From the NCBI GenBank assembly GCA_002162685.1, contig MAAQ01000016.1:124001-188000 (forward strand): a stretch of 64,000 bases of DNA. Direction: 5' to 3'. The notes under the pieces are model-generated. The model was not told the DNA's origin. It did not search any database and saw only the letters and a program-made list of their open reading frames with translations. Below are positions 4,675 through 10,878 of this stretch, piece after piece. The DNA is from Flavobacteriales bacterium 33_180_T64. Its GTDB lineage: Bacteria > Bacteroidota > Bacteroidia > Flavobacteriales > Flavobacteriaceae. The position numbers and the translations under genes were made by a program. The stretch's first letter is position 1. Every line of letters begins with the position of its first letter.

Positions 4675-5110
4675 ATTTGCTTAACCGCATTCCTTTTTTT
4701 ATTAAATAGTAACCTCCTGATAATACAATAATCAATGAGCTTATGCCTATAAGAGTTAATGGTTCTAGGTGCTTGAAATCGAGATCGATAACATGTCTGG
4801 AGATGCCAATTAAAGCGACTAGCAATACGATTTCGACATGAACAACATCTTCTTTTAAGTACATTTTTACTGTATGAACTAATTCGATGCCAATTAAAAC
4901 GAGCATAAAGCTTCCAAATATTTTATGCAAATGAGTTAAAATGTTGTTAGGAGAAAAGGAATCTTGATATTGAGATAGTATTCCACCAAATAGTAAACTA
5001 ATAAATATGATAGTCGAATACAATACTACGGCTAAGAGTGAGAATAATAGAATGAGAATAATCGCTCTTTCAATATGTTCTACTATTCTAATGAGTTGAT
5101 TTTTATTCAT
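4673..5110 (-). CDS. PsiE-family membrane protein
   Basis: A 145-aa integral membrane protein with four hydrophobic segments (about 15-40, 65-80, 92-108, 117-137). The DVVHVEIVLLVALIGISRHV segment is the hallmark of the phosphate-starvation-inducible PsiE family, whose biochemical role is unknown. It overlaps the upstream secreted-protein gene by 1 nt (TAATG), so the two form one transcription unit, downstream of the direct-repeat promoter at 5572-5643. Control by the neighbouring LytTR system is inferred from that site. Confidence 0.82.
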   Translation of the reverse strand: MNKNQLIRIVEHIERAIILILLFSLLAVVLYSTIIFISLLFGGILSQYQDSFSPNNILTHLHKIFGSFMLVLIGIELVHTVKMYLKEDVVHVEIVLLVALIGISRHVIDLDFKHLEPLTLIGISSLIIVLSGGYYLIKKGMRLSK

Positions 5111-5547
5111 TATTTAACGGTTTGTGAATTTTTAAATTCAAGCTTGTTAAGTACTGTTTGTTTGAAGTTAATCATGATTTTTGCATGATCATTGTATTGT
5201 TTAATTGTAAGAATAGGTTTTGATTCCATATTAATTTCACGAACTAATGAATGAACTCTTTCTACCATCTCACCATAAGTGTAGTCTGAGTCTTTATCAT
5301 CTAAACGGGACATTTTATATGTGTACTTAGATATAATATGACCATATTGTTCTTCAACTTCATTGCTTAATTTTAAATCAAGTACATTATTGTAAAACCA
5401 AATATGGAGATTTGAAAATTCTTGAGTGCTAAATAAAGCTACTTTATTGTTTCTTCTTTCTATTTGTTTTTGAGATAAGCTTTGTGAATTTACAGTCATA
5501 AATGATAATACACAGATTCCGATTAAAATTGATTTGATAGTTTTCAT
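5110..5547 (-). CDS. Small secreted protein of unknown function
   Basis: A 145-aa protein with an N-terminal signal peptide (MKTIKSILIGICVLSFMTVNSQ) and a predicted all-helical, charged mature part. I do not recognise a domain. It is the first gene of a two-gene unit with the PsiE-like protein. Its promoter carries a TACTTTTG -7 box preceded by two direct repeats 21 bp apart, the same arrangement as upstream of two other gene sets in this neighbourhood. A role in an envelope response is inferred from context only. Confidence 0.75.
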   Translation of the reverse strand: MKTIKSILIGICVLSFMTVNSQSLSQKQIERRNNKVALFSTQEFSNLHIWFYNNVLDLKLSNEVEEQYGHIISKYTYKMSRLDDKDSDYTYGEMVERVHSLVREINMESKPILTIKQYNDHAKIMINFKQTVLNKLEFKNSQTVK

Positions 5548-5571: not shown

Positions 5572-5643
5572 CAAAAGTACTGTGGGTATATGTTTTAAAA
5601 TGAAAAATAAAAGTGAAGTGACCTAAAAGGGAAGTGAAATAAC
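5572..5643 (-). promoter_or_regulatory. Promoter with 21-bp-spaced direct repeats (putative LytTR operator A)
   Basis: On the minus strand a TACTTTTG -7 box lies at 5579-5572, with no TTG -33 box at the expected distance. On the plus strand GTGAAGTGAC (5613-5622) and GTGAAATAAC (5634-5643) are direct repeats with a 21-bp period; the proximal one begins 34 bp from the -7 box. LytTR regulators are known to bind such repeats two helical turns apart. The LytTR gene ends at 5670, beside this site. The repeats are seen directly; the link to the regulator is inferred. Confidence 0.65.
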
Positions 5644-5669
5644 CTTATGCTAATGTGTTGTAAAATGAA

Positions 5670-6431
5670 TTATGAGTTTATCCAATTTTTCACCTCATTT
5701 GATTTAGCTTTACTTACAATAATACGATCTTCATAAGGTGGATTGATATTTATAATGAGTTTACTATTGAAGTAAAATTTCATATTGACAATAGCCTCTC
5801 TATTCAATATGAATTGCCTATTAACTCGGTGAAAATTACTGGGATTTAATTCAAGCTCTATATCCTCTAGTTTTTTGTTTATTATATAAGTTTGGTTATC
5901 AAATGTAGTCGCTTTTACGATTCCAATATCAATATAAAAATAGGCGATGTCTGTTATTTTTATTGGTAATAATTCATCCCTTTTTTGAACTAGATACGTA
6001 GATTTATAATTAGTTGTTTTTGTTTGTAACATCTCTAACAAACTATCAATATCGTTAGTCGCCTTTTTTGTTGTCTTATAAGAGGTTTTGAATTTATCAA
6101 TAGCTTCAGATAATTCTTCTTTACTAATAGGTTTTAATATATAATCAATGCTATTAACTTTAAATGCTTGAATAGCATATTGATCATATGCAGTAGTGAA
6201 AATTATAGGCGTTTTAATATCTATTTGTTTAAAGATTTCAAACGCTATACCATCTGCGAGGTGTATATCCATAAAAATTAAACTAGCTCCATATGCTTCA
6301 GTAAAATAGGCGATAGCAGATTTCACGGAATCCAAAACTTTAATGACCTCAATTTCAGGGTCTATGCTGTTTAATAAGTAGGCAAGGTTTTCGCTTGCTG
6401 CAATTTCATCTTCTACTATGACGACTTTCAT
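5670..6431 (-). CDS. LytTR-family response regulator
   Basis: A 253-aa two-domain regulator. The receiver domain (1 to about 120) has the acidic pair near residues 7-8, the phosphoacceptor Asp55 in FMDIHLADG, and the conserved Lys in DYILKPIS. A LytTR DNA-binding domain (about 150-250) follows, with the typical FHRVNRQFILN segment. It begins 6 nt after the histidine kinase gene on the same strand and is its cognate partner. Direct repeats of the kind LytTR domains bind lie at three nearby promoters (5613-5643, 8544-8574, 10848-10878). Confidence 0.93.
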   Translation of the reverse strand: MKVVIVEDEIAASENLAYLLNSIDPEIEVIKVLDSVKSAIAYFTEAYGASLIFMDIHLADGIAFEIFKQIDIKTPIIFTTAYDQYAIQAFKVNSIDYILKPISKEELSEAIDKFKTSYKTTKKATNDIDSLLEMLQTKTTNYKSTYLVQKRDELLPIKITDIAYFYIDIGIVKATTFDNQTYIINKKLEDIELELNPSNFHRVNRQFILNREAIVNMKFYFNSKLIININPPYEDRIIVSKAKSNEVKNWINS

Positions 6432-6437
6432 GATGTA

Positions 6438-7508
6438 TTAATTTAAAGGTAGTTTTACTCTAAACATATTGTTAGCGTTACTAATTTTAATTTGTTTCTC
6501 TTTTAATAGCTTGAACCTTTTGTCAATATTTGCTAACCCTTGGCCAGTGCTATCTATAAAAGTTGATCTTGGCTGTATTTTATTTTCTATGATTAACTCA
6601 CCGTTTTCGACATAAATAGTTACTTCTAATGGGTTTTCTTTAGAAATCTCATTATGCTTAATCGCGTTTTCAACTAATAATTGAAGCGTCAATGTTGGGA
6701 TATCTTGATTTAAGTAAACATCTTCAATATGTATTTCAATACTAAAACGGTCTCTATATCTTGTTTTAATTAAATAAATATAACTGTTTAAAAATTTTAG
6801 TTCTTCACGCAGTGATACTAAGTCTTGTTGCCCACTTTGTAAAATATAACGATACATATAAGACAGTTTGTTTACAAAAGTTGTAGCCTGTTCGTTTTCT
6901 CTAACTAAAGAGTTTAAAGAGTTTAAAGAATTAAATAGGAAATGTGGGTTAATTTGATTTTTTAAAGCCGATAATTCGTTTTGTAAGCTTTGTCGTTTGA
7001 GTAGCTCTTTTTCAGCAATATCTTCTTGATGAATAATTTGAAACCTCAAGATCTTTGATATAAAAATAAGGATGATGAGTATGATAAAGTACACAAAATA
7101 TAGCAAGCCTTTATCTGATGAATTCATAAGCTCATTAGTGACTTTTTGATGAATAAAAATAAAGCTTAAAACGGTTGTGAAAAATAATATAACATTGGTT
7201 AAAATAATTAAAACGGTGTTTAATAATTTACCATAATTGAAATATCGATGTTTCCAATTTGTGTTAAATTGAAGTGCTATCCAGCTGTAAATAAATAAAA
7301 TTAAAATTCGTATTACAATGTCTATAATTGTAGCAGACGTAAAAGAGGTGCCTAGATTATCAACAACATCGTATAATTCTAATACTCGCGGTAAGTTAAT
7401 TAATGCAGATACCAGTAGAGCGATTGCAAATATAGTAGACTGTTTTACATTTTTAATGTTCAAAACTAGAGTGCGTATTAATATTTTATGAATTGGTAAA
7501 TTAGTCAA
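6438..7508 (-). CDS. LytS/YehU-type sensor histidine kinase
   Basis: A 356-aa membrane kinase. About four transmembrane helices occupy the first 155 residues with no recognisable extracellular sensor domain. The His_kinase motif INPHFLFNSLNSL carries the phosphorylated His189, and the ATP-binding N-box reads LLVENAIKHNE near residue 280. This class pairs with LytTR regulators, and the partner follows 6 nt downstream. The short loops between helices suggest sensing within or close to the membrane, which is an inference. Confidence 0.92.
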   Translation of the reverse strand: MTNLPIHKILIRTLVLNIKNVKQSTIFAIALLVSALINLPRVLELYDVVDNLGTSFTSATIIDIVIRILILFIYSWIALQFNTNWKHRYFNYGKLLNTVLIILTNVILFFTTVLSFIFIHQKVTNELMNSSDKGLLYFVYFIILIILIFISKILRFQIIHQEDIAEKELLKRQSLQNELSALKNQINPHFLFNSLNSLNSLVRENEQATTFVNKLSYMYRYILQSGQQDLVSLREELKFLNSYIYLIKTRYRDRFSIEIHIEDVYLNQDIPTLTLQLLVENAIKHNEISKENPLEVTIYVENGELIIENKIQPRSTFIDSTGQGLANIDKRFKLLKEKQIKISNANNMFRVKLPLN

Positions 7509-7544
7509 AATATGTTATTTAATGGTATTTAAAACTGAATAAAA

Positions 7545-7573
7545 GAGGCTGTCCAACCCTGTAAGACAGCCTC
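7545..7573 (-). terminator. Terminator after the lipoprotein gene
   Basis: Stem GAGGCTGTC (7545-7553) and GACAGCCTC (7565-7573), followed on the minus strand by TTTTATT. It separates the lipoprotein gene (7645-8298) from the downstream histidine kinase gene, so the two-component genes probably have their own promoter. Confidence 0.7.
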
Positions 7574-7644
7574 AAAATGTATTCGCTATTAATCAATCAG
7601 GGTTTATCTGTTTTTACGATTTTGGTTTTGAGATTATTACTCGT

Positions 7645-8298
7645 TTATTTAATTAACTCCTTTGTTAGCTTTTTAGAAAAGTCTTTAGATGTTTTTTCTA
7701 AGTCTTTTGGATTATCTATTACAGTAATGATTATTGATAATTGAATGCTTTCAGGTTGTGATAAGTCATATACAATTGTTTCTAAAACATAATCTTTGCT
7801 AGTGAAAGTTGTCGTTTTTGGCTCAACATCAATATAAACGGTTTTATAATGTCTGTGAAATCCTCTATAATATCTATTAAAGTAATATGCTGGATACATG
7901 TTTTGATAATATATGGTACTTTCATTTGTTATAGTTTTGGTGTATTCGTTTGTGTCTTTTAATACCGTTTTTAATACGATGTCAACCCCCGAACTTCTGA
8001 GTTCGTCTTTAAAAAGCTTTAGTTGTTCATTTGTACGCATGTCATTAAAGTTAATTACAGGAAACATTTTATGACTCTCAAAAGAGTTGTATCCTTTATT
8101 TGATAATTGTTCGACAATGTCTTTTTCAAATGTTGTTCTTATCATATTGCTTTCACTTTCAGTTAAAACCATAATGTTTTTATTTCCTATTTGAGATGTT
8201 TTAATATCCTTCCATGAATCTGTAACTTTAACTGATGAGCATCCTGTCAATAGGATTGATAGTGCTAACAAACCGATTACTTTACTAATTGTTTTCAT
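7645..8298 (-). CDS. Envelope lipoprotein, unknown function
   Basis: A 217-aa protein with a lipoprotein signal peptide ending LLTGCSS, lipidated at Cys20. The mature part resembles the DUF4136-like group of small Bacteroidota lipoproteins (an early SWKDIKTSQIGNKNIMV segment), but the match is weak. A Tyr/His/Arg-rich stretch (PAYYFNRYYRGFHRHYK) lies near residue 145. It probably shares a transcript with a 46-aa ORF upstream, from a promoter bearing the 21-bp-spaced repeats at 8544-8574. Confidence 0.72.
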   Translation of the reverse strand: MKTISKVIGLLALSILLTGCSSVKVTDSWKDIKTSQIGNKNIMVLTESESNMIRTTFEKDIVEQLSNKGYNSFESHKMFPVINFNDMRTNEQLKLFKDELRSSGVDIVLKTVLKDTNEYTKTITNESTIYYQNMYPAYYFNRYYRGFHRHYKTVYIDVEPKTTTFTSKDYVLETIVYDLSQPESIQLSIIITVIDNPKDLEKTSKDFSKKLTKELIK

Positions 8299-8331
8299 GA
8301 TTTCTTGTGTTATGTGTTAGGGATTATTTTT

Positions 8332-8472
8332 TTAAATGAAAAGTTGTTTTTCATCATCATTTTGATAAATAGGTTTTAAAATAAAAGACTTTCTTGTACT
8401 GTTATTTTTGATTTTTAAAAGTTCTATAATGTGTTTGAATTGTTTTTTAAAAGTTGATTTGAGTAATTTCAT
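8332..8472 (-). CDS. Possible 46-aa basic protein
   Basis: A short ORF starts MKLLKSTFKKQFKHIIELL and ends TAA at 8332-8334. It is Lys-rich with an amphipathic N-terminal half and has no signal peptide or known domain. Support comes from position: it is the first ORF after a promoter (-7 box at 8502-8509) built like those of two neighbouring gene sets, with its ATG about 25 nt downstream of the expected transcription start. Coding potential cannot be proven at this length. The remaining bases of the 8299-8631 gap hold the promoters described separately. Confidence 0.4.
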   Translation of the reverse strand: MKLLKSTFKKQFKHIIELLKIKNNSTRKSFILKPIYQNDDEKQLFI

Positions 8473-8501
8473 AATGCTATGTCTTTAAGTGATTTCTTAC
8501 G

Positions 8502-8574
8502 TAAATGTAGCTTTATAAAGTGTTTGTGAAGTCTCATTATTAAGTGAGATGTCTTTAATTAAGAGTGAAGTGTC
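8502..8574 (-). promoter_or_regulatory. Promoter with 21-bp-spaced direct repeats (putative LytTR operator B)
   Basis: GTGAGATGTC (8544-8553) and GTGAAGTGTC (8565-8574) are plus-strand direct repeats with a 21-bp period. On the minus strand a TACATTTA box (7 of 8 matches to TAnnTTTG) lies at 8509-8502, 35 bp from the proximal repeat. It would serve the 46-aa ORF and lipoprotein gene. The divergent gene at 8632 has its own -7 box 24 bp beyond the distal repeat, so the site may act both ways. Confidence 0.6.
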
Positions 8575-8597
8575 TATATGAGCAAGGTGAAATTTTG

Positions 8598-8605
8598 TAA
8601 CTTTG
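8598..8605 (+). promoter_or_regulatory. -7 box for the DUF3313-like lipoprotein gene
   Basis: TAACTTTG matches TAnnTTTG exactly and lies 27 nt upstream of the start at 8632. No clear TTG -33 box is present; repeat B2 (8565-8574) occupies that region instead. Confidence 0.5.
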
Positions 8606-8631
8606 TTTTTAACCTTATTTATTATTGAATT

Positions 8632-9270
8632 ATGAAATTATTTTCTTTGGAGCTAAAATGTTTGTTTTGTGCAATGGTATTTCTATTTCTTGGATGCGGT
8701 CCAAAGATTGGTCAATCTGGCTTTTTGGATAATTATGATAATTTAAAAGAAGGTGAAGTAAACCAAACCATGTTATCATATGTCAATCCTAATTTCGAAA
8801 AAGGGAAATACAAGAAATTTATGATTGATGATATTGTAACAAAGTTTGGTGAAAAAGCAAAAGGGAATAAAGTAGATCAAGAGAAATTAAACGAATTAAC
8901 AGGTTTTTTTAAGGCTGAAATCATCAAAAAACTAAGTGCCAATTACACTATTGTTGATCAGCCTGGAGATGATGTTGCTCGAATTCAAATAGCAATAACT
9001 GAAATTATTCCAGGGAAATTATTTTCAAATATTTTCCCTATAAGTGTAGCGGTTAACACAGCAACAGGAAGAGGTAAAGGAGGTGCTTCTTTAGAAATGA
9101 AAGTTGTAGACTCTCAAACGAGTGAGGTGCTTGGTCAGGCAATAGATAACCGAAAGAATAGAAGTTATATTAAAACGTTTAGTAAGTATGGTAATGCTAG
9201 AGGTGTTATGACGTATTGGGCAGGTTTACTTAAAGGTAGAATAGATGCTTTTAAAGGCAATGTAAATTAA
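8632..9270 (+). CDS. DUF3313-like lipoprotein
   Basis: A 212-aa protein with a lipoprotein signal peptide (VFLFLGCGPK, lipidated Cys22). The mature N-terminus QSGFLDNYDNLKEG is characteristic of DUF3313, a family of outer-membrane or periplasmic lipoproteins without known function. The central FFKAEIIKKLSANYTIVDQPGDDVARIQIAITEI region fits the same family. It is convergent with the charged secreted protein at 9356 and shares a bidirectional terminator with it. Confidence 0.75.
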   Translation: MKLFSLELKCLFCAMVFLFLGCGPKIGQSGFLDNYDNLKEGEVNQTMLSYVNPNFEKGKYKKFMIDDIVTKFGEKAKGNKVDQEKLNELTGFFKAEIIKKLSANYTIVDQPGDDVARIQIAITEIIPGKLFSNIFPISVAVNTATGRGKGGASLEMKVVDSQTSEVLGQAIDNRKNRSYIKTFSKYGNARGVMTYWAGLLKGRIDAFKGNVN

Positions 9271-9300
9271 GAATGTAAAATATTAAGACTTTATAAATTA

Positions 9301-9346
9301 CTAAATAAAAAACCCTTTACAATTCAGTAAAGGGTTTTTTATTTAG
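9301..9346. terminator. Bidirectional terminator
   Basis: A perfect 20-bp inverted repeat (9301-9320 with 9327-9346, loop AATTCA). The core ACCCTTTAC/GTAAAGGGT is flanked by A/T tracts on both sides, so it can stop the gene ending at 9270 and the convergent gene ending at 9356. Confidence 0.9.
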
Positions 9347-9355
9347 TAAAAAGAA

Positions 9356-10084
9356 TTACCAGTCTCGTCGTCTTTTATTGGTGTCCTTTTCATTTCTTTC
9401 GTCTCTATCATCACGTCGTTCTCTGCTATCTTCACGACGCTCTCTATTGTCTTCGGCAAGCTCTCTTTTGGTAGCTTCAATGTCTTGTTCCATTGTATTT
9501 ACGAAATCTAAAATATGCTTTTTATTAATGAGTGTAGCATCTATGTTGTCAAATGAAAACCTATAATTTTTTAATATTTTCAATATTGATGCTTGTTGCT
9601 CAGTTCTTGCTATTTGTTGTTCAAAGTCTCTAATATCATCACGTCTATCTCGTTTGTCGTCTCTCTTATTAGCTTGGTCACGCGCCATATCTTTTTTGTC
9701 ATCGTGTCTATCAAAGCGTCCTTTTTTTGAGTCGTCTTTGTTGTCACGTATTTCACGTCTATCAGAGCGTATCTCAGACGAACTTTGTGCAATCTCTTTT
9801 CTGGCTTTTTTTGCTTTCTCACTACTTTGTCCAACTTCTCTTACCATATCAGAAATAATATTAGCTTTTAGTTCATTAACTTTATTAGAATCCTTGATGT
9901 CAAAAGCACTATTAAACACACTTAATTTAGCAATAAAAGCTTGCAATTCTTTTGTGTCACGTTCTAGGTCTTTCTTCCCTTCCTGTATTTGTTTCGTGTT
10001 CTGTATGGCTTCTTTTACGTTTTGAGCATTAGTGTTTATACTAAAGCAAATAGTAAGAATTAAAAATTGAATTGAATGTTTCAT
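9356..10084 (-). CDS. Secreted, highly charged coiled-coil protein
   Basis: A 242-aa protein with a signal peptide cleaved near FSINTNAQ. Residues from about 95 onward are extremely rich in Arg, Asp, Glu and Lys, with repeated RRD/RDD/RED patterns (around 100-150 and again 210-242) separated by a helical segment. I recognise no enzymatic domain. It lies 20 nt downstream of the DUF6515 gene and is probably co-transcribed from the repeat-bearing promoter at 10807-10878. Ser-rich ORFs on the opposite strand here are shadows caused by Arg/Asp codon repeats. Confidence 0.75.
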   Translation of the reverse strand: MKHSIQFLILTICFSINTNAQNVKEAIQNTKQIQEGKKDLERDTKELQAFIAKLSVFNSAFDIKDSNKVNELKANIISDMVREVGQSSEKAKKARKEIAQSSSEIRSDRREIRDNKDDSKKGRFDRHDDKKDMARDQANKRDDKRDRRDDIRDFEQQIARTEQQASILKILKNYRFSFDNIDATLINKKHILDFVNTMEQDIEATKRELAEDNRERREDSRERRDDRDERNEKDTNKRRRDW

Positions 10085-10104
10085 TTTTTTTAATATTAAG
10101 ATGA

Positions 10105-10758
10105 TTAATTGTTTGATATACTGTAGACAACTTCGTAAGTTGTATTTCCTTCAATTGTAATATTCTTTTTGTAGAACACGTTATTATATTGGTATAAAAC
10201 CTTACCATCAATAATAATTTCTTCAGAGTCTTTATGGATTTCATTTAATACGACTCCAACAGGTGGTTGAGATACTTCGTAGTTTCCTTCGTTTTCTGTT
10301 GAACTAATTGTAGATTCAATATAGTATATGCCTGAATGATAAAAATAAACCGATGGTCCTATAACAATTCTAGTATAACCTACGGGTAATACAGTAATTC
10401 TAAATCCTCGAGGGGGCATAACTACAATGTATTGATCGCCATACAGAGTATAATATATTCCTGAATAATAGTAGTATGATAATCCTCCATAAACCAGTCT
10501 TACATGGTGTATAGGTAAGGTTCTTATAACGCGTCTATATCTAGGGTATCTGTAATGAGGACTTCTTCGTATTGGTTGAGTTCTGTATCTATCATTATGT
10601 CTATTGTGATTAGAACTTACTCTATCATTGGTATGTGTCCTTTCCGTTTTTACACTTCTGTTTTTTGTAGTACTTCTTTTTTGCCCCATTATTTCGTTAG
10701 GGAATAAAAAGAGGCACAGTAATAAGCTAATCCCTAATGTGTTTTGTAATGTATTCAT
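10105..10758 (-). CDS. DUF6515-family secreted protein
   Basis: A secreted protein of about 217 aa. After the signal peptide (LGISLLLCLFLF) comes a basic Arg/His-rich stretch, then Tyr-rich repeats of the YYYYSGIYYTLYGDQYIVV and YFYHSGIYYIES kind that define DUF6515, whose function is unknown. The frame is open to 10809, but the promoter -7 box lies at 10807-10814, so translation must begin further in; ATG 10758 or the adjacent ATG 10761 precede the signal peptide directly. The charged coiled-coil protein follows in the same direction. Confidence 0.78.
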   Translation of the reverse strand: MNTLQNTLGISLLLCLFLFPNEIMGQKRSTTKNRSVKTERTHTNDRVSSNHNRHNDRYRTQPIRRSPHYRYPRYRRVIRTLPIHHVRLVYGGLSYYYYSGIYYTLYGDQYIVVMPPRGFRITVLPVGYTRIVIGPSVYFYHSGIYYIESTISSTENEGNYEVSQPPVGVVLNEIHKDSEEIIIDGKVLYQYNNVFYKKNITIEGNTTYEVVYSISNN

Positions 10759-10806
10759 CATTGTAAATTTTAGCATTGTTTCAAGCAATATCGCATGATT
10801 CTTCAA

Positions 10807-10878
10807 CAAAAGTATTTATGAAATGAGCTTTTAAAATGAAAATAGAGGTGAAACGACTAAAAGCTAAAGTGAAGTGTC
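10807..10878 (-). promoter_or_regulatory. Promoter with 21-bp-spaced direct repeats (putative LytTR operator C)
   Basis: GTGAAACGAC (10848-10857) and GTGAAGTGTC (10869-10878) are direct repeats with a 21-bp period. On the minus strand TACTTTTG at 10814-10807 is the -7 box, 34 bp from the proximal repeat, the same distance as at operator A. The intervening DNA shares TTTTCATTTTAAAA with operator A. A further single copy, GTGAAACGTC, lies at 10932-10941 nearer the divergent gene at 11018. Confidence 0.65.

Follow-up and report, generated by a model that had tools for sequence, protein, structure and literature searches.

Three direct repeats surround a LytTR-type two-component system

We analysed a 64,000-nucleotide (nt) stretch of the genome of Flavobacteriales bacterium 33_180_T64 (contig MAAQ01000016.1, positions 124,001 to 188,000 of the forward strand; hereafter the window), in which three direct-repeat promoter sites surround the genes of a LytTR-type response regulator and a LytS-type kinase. 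Each site comprises 10 + 11 + 10 base pairs (bp) with a period of 21 bp and is read on the minus strand, the coding strand of the downstream genes. The sites, their −7 boxes and the genes of the system are listed here; lengths are in amino acids (aa), ORF denotes an open reading frame, L numbers are loci fetched from relatives, and the E-values of the sites are those of profile R1, which was built from an alignment (A1) of 64 sites, the three window sites included.

5613–5643 (−): site 1, direct repeat GTTATTTCAC-N11-GTCACTTCAC, 5′ of the genes for the secreted 145-aa protein and PsiE; R1 E 2.1e-12
8544–8574 (−): site 2, direct repeat GACACTTCAC-N11-GACATCTCAC, 5′ of the 46-aa ORF and the lipoprotein gene; R1 E 5.0e-9
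10848–10878 (−): site 3, direct repeat GACACTTCAC-N11-GTCGTTTCAC, 5′ of the DUF6515 and coiled-coil genes; R1 E 1.3e-11
5572–5579 (−): −7 box TACTTTTG, 33 intervening nt from site 1
8502–8509 (−): −7 box TACATTTA, 34 intervening nt from site 2; last base A, not G
10807–10814 (−): −7 box TACTTTTG, 33 intervening nt from site 3
5670–6431 (−): response regulator with receiver and LytTR DNA-binding domains, 253 aa; Pfam PF00072 (7.8e-14) and PF04397 (2.6e-17)
6438–7508 (−): membrane histidine kinase, 356 aa, TTG start as called; His_kinase PF06580 (4e-26)
7545–7573 (−): hairpin followed by TTTTATT, between the lipoprotein and kinase genes; minimum free energy −20.2 kcal/mol, z −3.40 (71-nt stretch)
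7645–8298 (−): lipoprotein, 217 aa; predicted fold possibly like that of PelC/CsgG/LptE-type outer-membrane lipoproteins
8332–8472 (−): 46-aa microprotein of the [LM]FI-tailed set, ending in YQNDDEKQLFI
5110–5547 (−): secreted helical protein, 145 aa (cluster 4); site 1 recurs 5′ of its homologue in L005, L006, L011 and L012
4673–5110 (−): PsiE family membrane protein; Pfam PF06146 (1.2e-22); co-transcription with the secreted protein presumed
10105–10776 (−): DUF6515 protein, ATG start (TTG at 10809 also possible); PF20125 (8e-24)
9356–10084 (−): charged, secreted coiled-coil protein of 242 aa, encoded second downstream of site 3

Both Pfam matches of the regulator lie above their cut-offs, in the receiver-then-LytTR order of LytTR-type response regulators. 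With the PF06580 kinase encoded beside it, this bears out a preliminary description, made from the sequence alone, that had placed a LytTR/LytS pair amid the three sites. The six decamers that it reported are all present with a period of exactly 21 bp, and the box distances that it gave as 34, 35 and 34 bp are base-to-base counts of the 33, 34 and 33 intervening nt. All three boxes fit TAnnTTT[GA]; the name TAnnTTTG-like is apt at sites 1 and 3 (TACTTTTG), and the site 2 box, TACATTTA, departs from it in the final A.

We scanned the window with GTSAYTTCAC-N11-GTSAYTTCAC, allowing up to 3 mismatches, and found three matches against 0.06 expected; three were reached in 0 of 100 shuffles. The same scan of the 3.75-Mb genome (99.6% complete) gave four matches, the three sites and one other, and none with the reversed control. 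A looser consensus derived from the three sites had perfect matches at these three places only, a result that is circular for the count of three but not for the absence elsewhere in the genome. Relaxed to up to 3 mismatches it matched the genome 49 times, compared with 41 times for its reversed control; its weak matches are thus background. R1 ranked the three sites at 2.1e-12 to 5.0e-9 and the next best place in the genome at 0.023. The genome scan for the repeat pattern that the preliminary description had proposed thus returns, by consensus and by R1, only these three strong sites. On the plus strand, a TAACTTTG box (8598–8605) of a divergent DUF3313 lipoprotein gene (8632–9270) begins 23 bp past site 2; an effect of the site on this gene as well is therefore conceivable. 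The cluster of the DUF3313 gene has only three members among the fetched loci.

The sites co-occur with this regulator across the family

We surveyed 397 family genomes (G numbers, with C for contigs) for the strict pattern, with at most 1 mismatch, and for regulator orthologues at E ≤ 1e-75. The strict pattern occurred in 29 genomes (reversed control, 2 of 397) and the regulator in 36. The motif was present in 18 of the 36 regulator-positive genomes and in 11 of the 361 regulator-negative ones (Fisher 3e-14). A lower-stringency regulator search, covering these 11 genomes and four further ones, detected contig-edge fragments with 55–57% identity in G037 and G140; recounted accordingly, the motif is found in 20 of 38 genomes with the regulator versus 9 of 359 without it (Fisher 9e-17). 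These P values are optimistic owing to shared ancestry and training overlap. R1, at E ≤ 1e-3, matched all 36 regulator-positive genomes and 3 of 36 regulator-negative genomes, the latter set being hand-picked and consisting mainly of the complete genomes that head the table.

Promoter geometry is conserved in relatives

We next compared the best 80 loci around regulator matches (39–76% identity; L005–L084), mostly from Flavobacteriaceae, the nearest being from an uncultured Psychroserpens. The kinase cluster is present in 79 of 81 clustered sequences (80 loci plus the window), counted by presence and not by adjacency. Allowing up to 2 mismatches, we counted 104 half-site pairs at period 21, compared with 0, 2, 3, 1, 1, 0, 1 and 2 at periods 17, 18, 19, 20, 22, 23, 24 and 25; tandem triple repeats and near-identical relatives enter these counts uncorrected. 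Among 52 seed sites (at most 1 mismatch, not deduplicated, and selected without regard to box distance), 45 had a TAnnTTT[GA] box beginning exactly 33 or 34 nt past the repeat.

Circularity was addressed by cross-training a matrix with a −7 term on loci split into L005–L028 and L029–L076, with reversed sequences as controls. When trained on the first set, 42 of the 48 loci of the second scored above every reversed control; when trained on the second, 23 of the 24 loci of the first did so. Hence 65 of 72 loci carrying the homologous pair retain a site above all controls. Together with the R1 matches in all 36 regulator-positive genomes, this answers the comparison proposed in the preliminary description, in that the repeat is conserved where the two-component pair is kept.

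TAnnTTTG is the −7 element of Bacteroidota promoters. The seventh and eighth bases past the box are A in 43 of 45 and 45 of 45 sites, respectively, and no conserved −33 element was found between the repeat and the box. From the fixed distance of 33/34 nt and the missing −33 element we infer that the repeat is an activator site centred about 60 bp 5′ of the transcription start. Published LytTR operators, in the excerpts available from PMC4847170, consist of two 9–11-nt repeats 11–13 nt apart, and Escherichia coli YpdB binds a direct repeat of GGCATTTCAT. The 10 + 11 + 10 bp sites of the window and its relatives satisfy this rule, in agreement with the earlier expectation that LytTR proteins bind direct repeats two helical turns apart.

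Probable operators of the encoded regulator and alternative explanations

We conclude that the LytTR response regulator whose gene lies among the three repeats very probably uses them as its operators and would thereby drive a compact circuit of envelope genes. The evidence lies in the sequence of the repeats, in their fixed geometry and conservation, and in the fact that they accompany this regulator and not LytTR genes generally; the candidate LytTR regulon proposed at the outset gains support from the genome scan, from conservation with the pair and from the published site geometry.

Several observations weigh against this conclusion. Training sites for R1 came in part from several of the regulator-positive genomes, and R1 also matched three regulator-negative genomes: G049, which has a 42% identical regulator with a site directly downstream; G032, in which the site lies 5′ of a cluster-3 gene with no adjacent kinase–regulator pair; and G006, an unexplained case. 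The strict motif occurs in nine genomes without a close regulator orthologue. Seven of the 72 loci lack a site above control (L023, L045, L046, L047, L049, L052 and L066), and just three of the eight loci L077–L084 have one. Target content varies among loci, PsiE follows cluster 4 only in the window and L005, and in the window no site lies immediately 5′ of the kinase–regulator genes.

The alternative that survives best, although we consider it improbable, is that a different regulator, either a LytTR paralogue or an unrelated activator, binds the repeats and that the neighbouring pair is linked to them by position only. The source genome has 27 LytTR matches, of which the sites surround one, and G032 and the nine strict-motif genomes without a close orthologue would fit such an arrangement. 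However, R1 tracks this regulator genome by genome (36/36 versus 3/36), and two congeners with 12 and 13 LytTR genes (G045 and G267) have neither a regulator orthologue at 1e-75 nor an R1 match better than 0.05. The motif therefore follows this regulator and not LytTR genes at large, which disfavours operators of LytTR proteins in general. Furthermore, sites lie on contigs other than that of the regulator gene in G237 (C14 and C17 versus C12) and G246 (C4 and C8 versus C3), so mere linkage is insufficient.

It is less probable still that the repeats act by repression, or jointly with another factor at divergent promoters, rather than by activation. Site 2 does lie between the promoter of the 46-aa ORF and the TAACTTTG box of the divergent DUF3313 gene, but the fixed 33/34 nt to the −7 box and the lack of a conserved −33 element are as for an activator, and YpdB, the LytTR regulator whose sites were looked up, is described as an activator in the excerpts from PMC4847170. 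We give virtually no weight to chance repeats in an AT-rich genome and regard them as ruled out: short decamers may recur and the first scan was retrospective, but three matches were reached in 0 of 100 shuffles, period 21 is in marked excess and the sites are conserved in held-out loci.

Predicted targets are mostly putative envelope proteins

We counted targets at sites with a core score of at least 15, overlapping tandem matches being counted separately. Forty site matches lie 5′ of cluster 3, a secreted acidic repeat protein whose gene is usually followed by those of the kinase and regulator, which suggests autoregulation in many relatives. Another 11, in 10 sequences (the window and nine fetched loci in which site 3 recurs), lie 5′ of DUF6515, and 5 lie 5′ of the 145-aa secreted protein (L005, L006, L011, L012 and the window). 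Other sites head cluster 2 together with a small ORF, or else DUF4251, Lipocalin_4 or DUF4999-like genes. We use the label 'envelope' because most targets look secreted, lipid-anchored or membrane-bound by eye; the envelope-response module of the preliminary description fits these kinds of target, and the response itself is conjectural. In the window, autoregulation would need read-through of the hairpin at 7545–7573, which precedes the kinase–regulator genes and is possibly a leaky terminator; a separate scan did not flag it.

Pfam confirmed PsiE (PF06146) and DUF6515 (PF20125) among the targets initially named, whereas the 46-aa ORF, the 145-aa secreted protein and the coiled-coil protein had zero matches at E ≤ 0.01. 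The only Pfam match of the lipoprotein falls below the cut-off of that family. Its Cys20, the candidate lipobox cysteine, is invariant in 34 homologues, and Foldseek aligned its model (predicted local distance difference test score 76.7) with PelC (E 1.1e-6, template-modelling (TM) scores 0.43/0.57, root-mean-square deviation 12.4 Å) and, with weaker E-values and modest TM-scores, with GNA1162, LptE, CsgG and TraT chains. The predicted fold may resemble that of PelC/CsgG/LptE-type outer-membrane lipoproteins.

The 145-aa protein did not match LTXXQ (Spy/CpxP; PF07813) at E ≤ 0.01, nor was LTXXQ one of the 14 families reported for its 21 homologues at E ≤ 0.05. Its fold gave a best Foldseek E of 0.25 with no Spy/CpxP row; VIA rows were helical arrangements with Z up to 9.3, below the level called meaningful for helical models. 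An LTXXQ-like gene does lie 5′ of the kinase in L074 and L076 (7.5e-5 and 1.7e-4, just under the cut-off). Cluster-3 proteins encoded 5′ of the kinase (L062, L063, L065, L067 and others) contain variable numbers of EEEIELDFDTxxYLPxGFNPYAG-like repeats, and the one or two tested had no Pfam or NCBIfam match.

Predicted microproteins with a conserved C-terminus accompany the lipoprotein

The 46-aa ORF, already named with the lipoprotein as a target, turned out to belong to a conserved [LM]FI-tailed set that had not been foreseen. A site (core score ≥ 15) lies within 560 bp 5′ of 28 of 51 cluster-2 lipoprotein genes, and in 22 of these 28 a small ORF ending in [LM]FI lies between site and lipoprotein gene. 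Among the 23 cluster-2 genes without such a site, which include distant paralogues, only 2 have an [LM]FI ORF (Fisher 6e-7), and these two (L014 and L070) carry weak sites with scores of 7.7 and 9.2.

A separate scan for small ORFs that end in [LMIV]F[IVL] and lie no more than 70 nt from a long ORF returned 26 distinct rows. One, a 40-aa ORF of L014 ending in LFV, is spurious; the other 25 encode proteins of 40–76 aa that all end in [LM]FI, mostly after an acidic stretch, have variable bodies and are located just 5′ of the lipoprotein gene. Their tails use TTA, CTA, TTG, CTT or CTG for Leu (Met in seven), TTT or TTC for Phe and ATT, ATA or ATC for Ile, followed by TAA, TAG or TGA. This synonymous variation in the last three codons and the stop is an indication that selection acts on the tail of the protein and not on the DNA. 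Six 45-aa homologues, compared as 15 non-independent pairs, differ 76, 89 and 150 times at codon positions 1, 2 and 3. The small ORFs at the equivalent place in L060 and L061 have a tail other than [LM]FI. We would guess that the [LM]FI tail is a C-terminal ligand or degradation tag.

A second set comprises 18 distinct small ORFs behind sites, with a GxxAGxA[MIL]R-like tail; in five loci (L013, L026, L027, L030 and L068) such an ORF precedes the [LM]FI gene. The 62-aa members show no third-position excess (77, 62 and 81 differences), so that their coding status rests on the kept C-terminus. Five small proteins of both tail kinds had no NCBIfam match. In L015 (3380–6208; same contig as L173), four tandem site-plus-small-ORF units lie 5′ of the lipoprotein gene, two of the ORFs ending in LFI and two encoding 32-aa hydrophobic peptides. 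Behind LytTR sites at L180 12696 (−) and L174 6479 (−) we noted a further type of small ORF, 48–49 aa long, which contains a single hydrophobic segment and retains the C-terminus SDVWERKR.

Proposed circuit and comparison with known systems

The circuit is most likely an envelope-stress activator circuit. A cell-envelope signal would lead the membrane kinase to phosphorylate the regulator, two molecules of which would each take one half-site, the half-sites being some two helical turns apart on the same face of the DNA. Bound about 60 bp 5′ of the transcription start, the regulator would help RNA polymerase at TAnnTTTG promoters that have no conserved −33 element. The predicted output is the secreted helical protein with PsiE, the [LM]FI microprotein with the putatively PelC/CsgG-like lipoprotein, and DUF6515 with the secreted coiled-coil protein. 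In relatives where the kinase–regulator operon is 3′ of a site, the circuit would be autoregulated.

AgrA, ComE and PlnC peptide-signalling systems also combine a LytTR regulator and tandem sites with small ORFs among the targets. The small ORFs here, unlike theirs, have by eye no obvious signal or double-glycine leader and keep only their C-terminus, and no dedicated exporter was identified. As in Cpx and sigma-E envelope stress regulons, whose targets are mostly secreted, lipoprotein and membrane proteins, most targets here are of these kinds, L074 and L076 have the LTXXQ-like gene and some relatives have small RNA (sRNA)-like genes; the regulator here, by contrast, is of LytTR type, and the 21 homologues of the 145-aa protein lack LTXXQ at E ≤ 0.05. 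YpdA carries a 5TM-LYT sensor domain, unlike the window kinase, for which Pfam at E ≤ 0.01 gives PF06580 only.

LytTR regulation by direct repeats is already known. The closest parallel is E. coli YpdA/YpdB at the PyhjX operator, as presented in the excerpts from PMC4847170: a LytTR activator, a decamer direct repeat (GGCATTTCAT, similar to the half-site here, GTCACTTCAC), a spacer within 11–13 nt and very few targets. In that account YpdB has a single transporter target and responds to pyruvate, whereas here there are three envelope operons with microproteins, often autoregulation and, in relatives, sRNA-like genes. We found no described Bacteroidota LytTR regulon in the open-licence literature searched, nor any report there of this regulon, its microproteins or the RNA units, including in the available parts of PMC9723704 and PMC11697453. 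The operator is precise enough for one regulator's regulon to be read from sequence across Flavobacteriaceae. The regulon brings to light a set of microproteins that had gone unannotated and whose C-terminus is strictly conserved, and it connects a two-component system with the multicopy sRNA-like genes of relatives.

Small RNA-like units in relatives

Many sites in G017, G145, G246 and G169 are followed by a unit of about 120–155 nt without an obvious gene (L174–L180, L247 and L248). These units begin at the predicted transcription start and end in an intrinsic terminator, shortly 5′ of which GGTTAGTTTGGTTAGTTT is nearly invariant; of the 13 base pairs of the terminator, five covary, both partners having changed. 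We searched the 397 genomes with a model of the units, R2, and at E ≤ 1e-7 obtained 30 matches in six genomes (G017, G145, G246, G169, G328 and G152, with eight copies in G246), all regulator-positive (Fisher 4e-7); four of these six contributed to R2. At E ≤ 1e-3, R2 matched 36 genomes, most of them regulator-negative and weak. We discounted the others with E-values from 1e-5 to 1e-3, found in about 28 genomes, as probably being terminators matched by chance, a judgement made for the group and not match by match. The source genome had no R2 match at E ≤ 1e-3.

We examined 41 R2 matches. A site with a core score of at least 10 lies 72–94 nt before the RNA start in 23; four (L189, L246, L060 and L061), with a site over 400 nt upstream or none in the vicinity, occupy the 3′ end of a cluster-28-like gene; five belong to the relatives G084 and G291, and nine have no clear site. 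The weaker matches in G084 and G291, whose regulator is only 39% identical and whose units share the core behind other upstream sequence, rule out an RNA family exclusive to this regulator. The sRNA-like genes in six relatives are members or neighbours of the putative regulon.

Ten loci with RNA units gave 0 Rfam matches at the gathering score, the presence of FopS in the Rfam copy being unchecked, and four Rfam matches in the first 20 kb of the window, all below gathering scores, were treated as chance. In four genomes, exact complements of the conserved stretch lay on or near the RNA units themselves, except at G017:C3:514057; the other counts are not clearly higher than those of the reversed control, and we claim no target. 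The FopS multicopy sRNAs of Bacteroides, as the available part of PMC11697453 describes them, are about 65–70 nt long, with a mostly single-stranded 5′ part and then a terminator hairpin, and that study invokes an unknown transcriptional regulator in membrane stress for multicopy sRNAs. The units here resemble FopS in being multicopy paralogues with this architecture and one 3′-end-derived member, but are longer, have another conserved stretch, follow LytTR-type sites and gave no Rfam match at the gathering score.

These strands could be joined in a single, rather doubtful proposal of an undescribed Flavobacteriaceae envelope-stress circuit, whose LytTR regulator makes C-terminal-tail microproteins with a partner lipoprotein and, in some lineages, paralogous sRNAs. 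If so, the free [LM]FI tail of fast-evolving microproteins would be a ligand or degradation tag for an envelope protease or for the kinase of the pair itself and serve as a feedback signal, and the circuit would be a bacteroidotal counterpart of the Cpx and sigma-E regulons with microproteins and outer-membrane-protein-repressing sRNAs.

Some RNA-unit copies of G291 and G084 (L241–L243) carry a palindrome-like ATGACATTTGTCATG. In L171 (G237:C14:255300–257400), three near-identical LytTR-type promoters lie 302 bp apart, the first two heading ORF-less units with GTTGTTAGGTTC repeats and a terminator.

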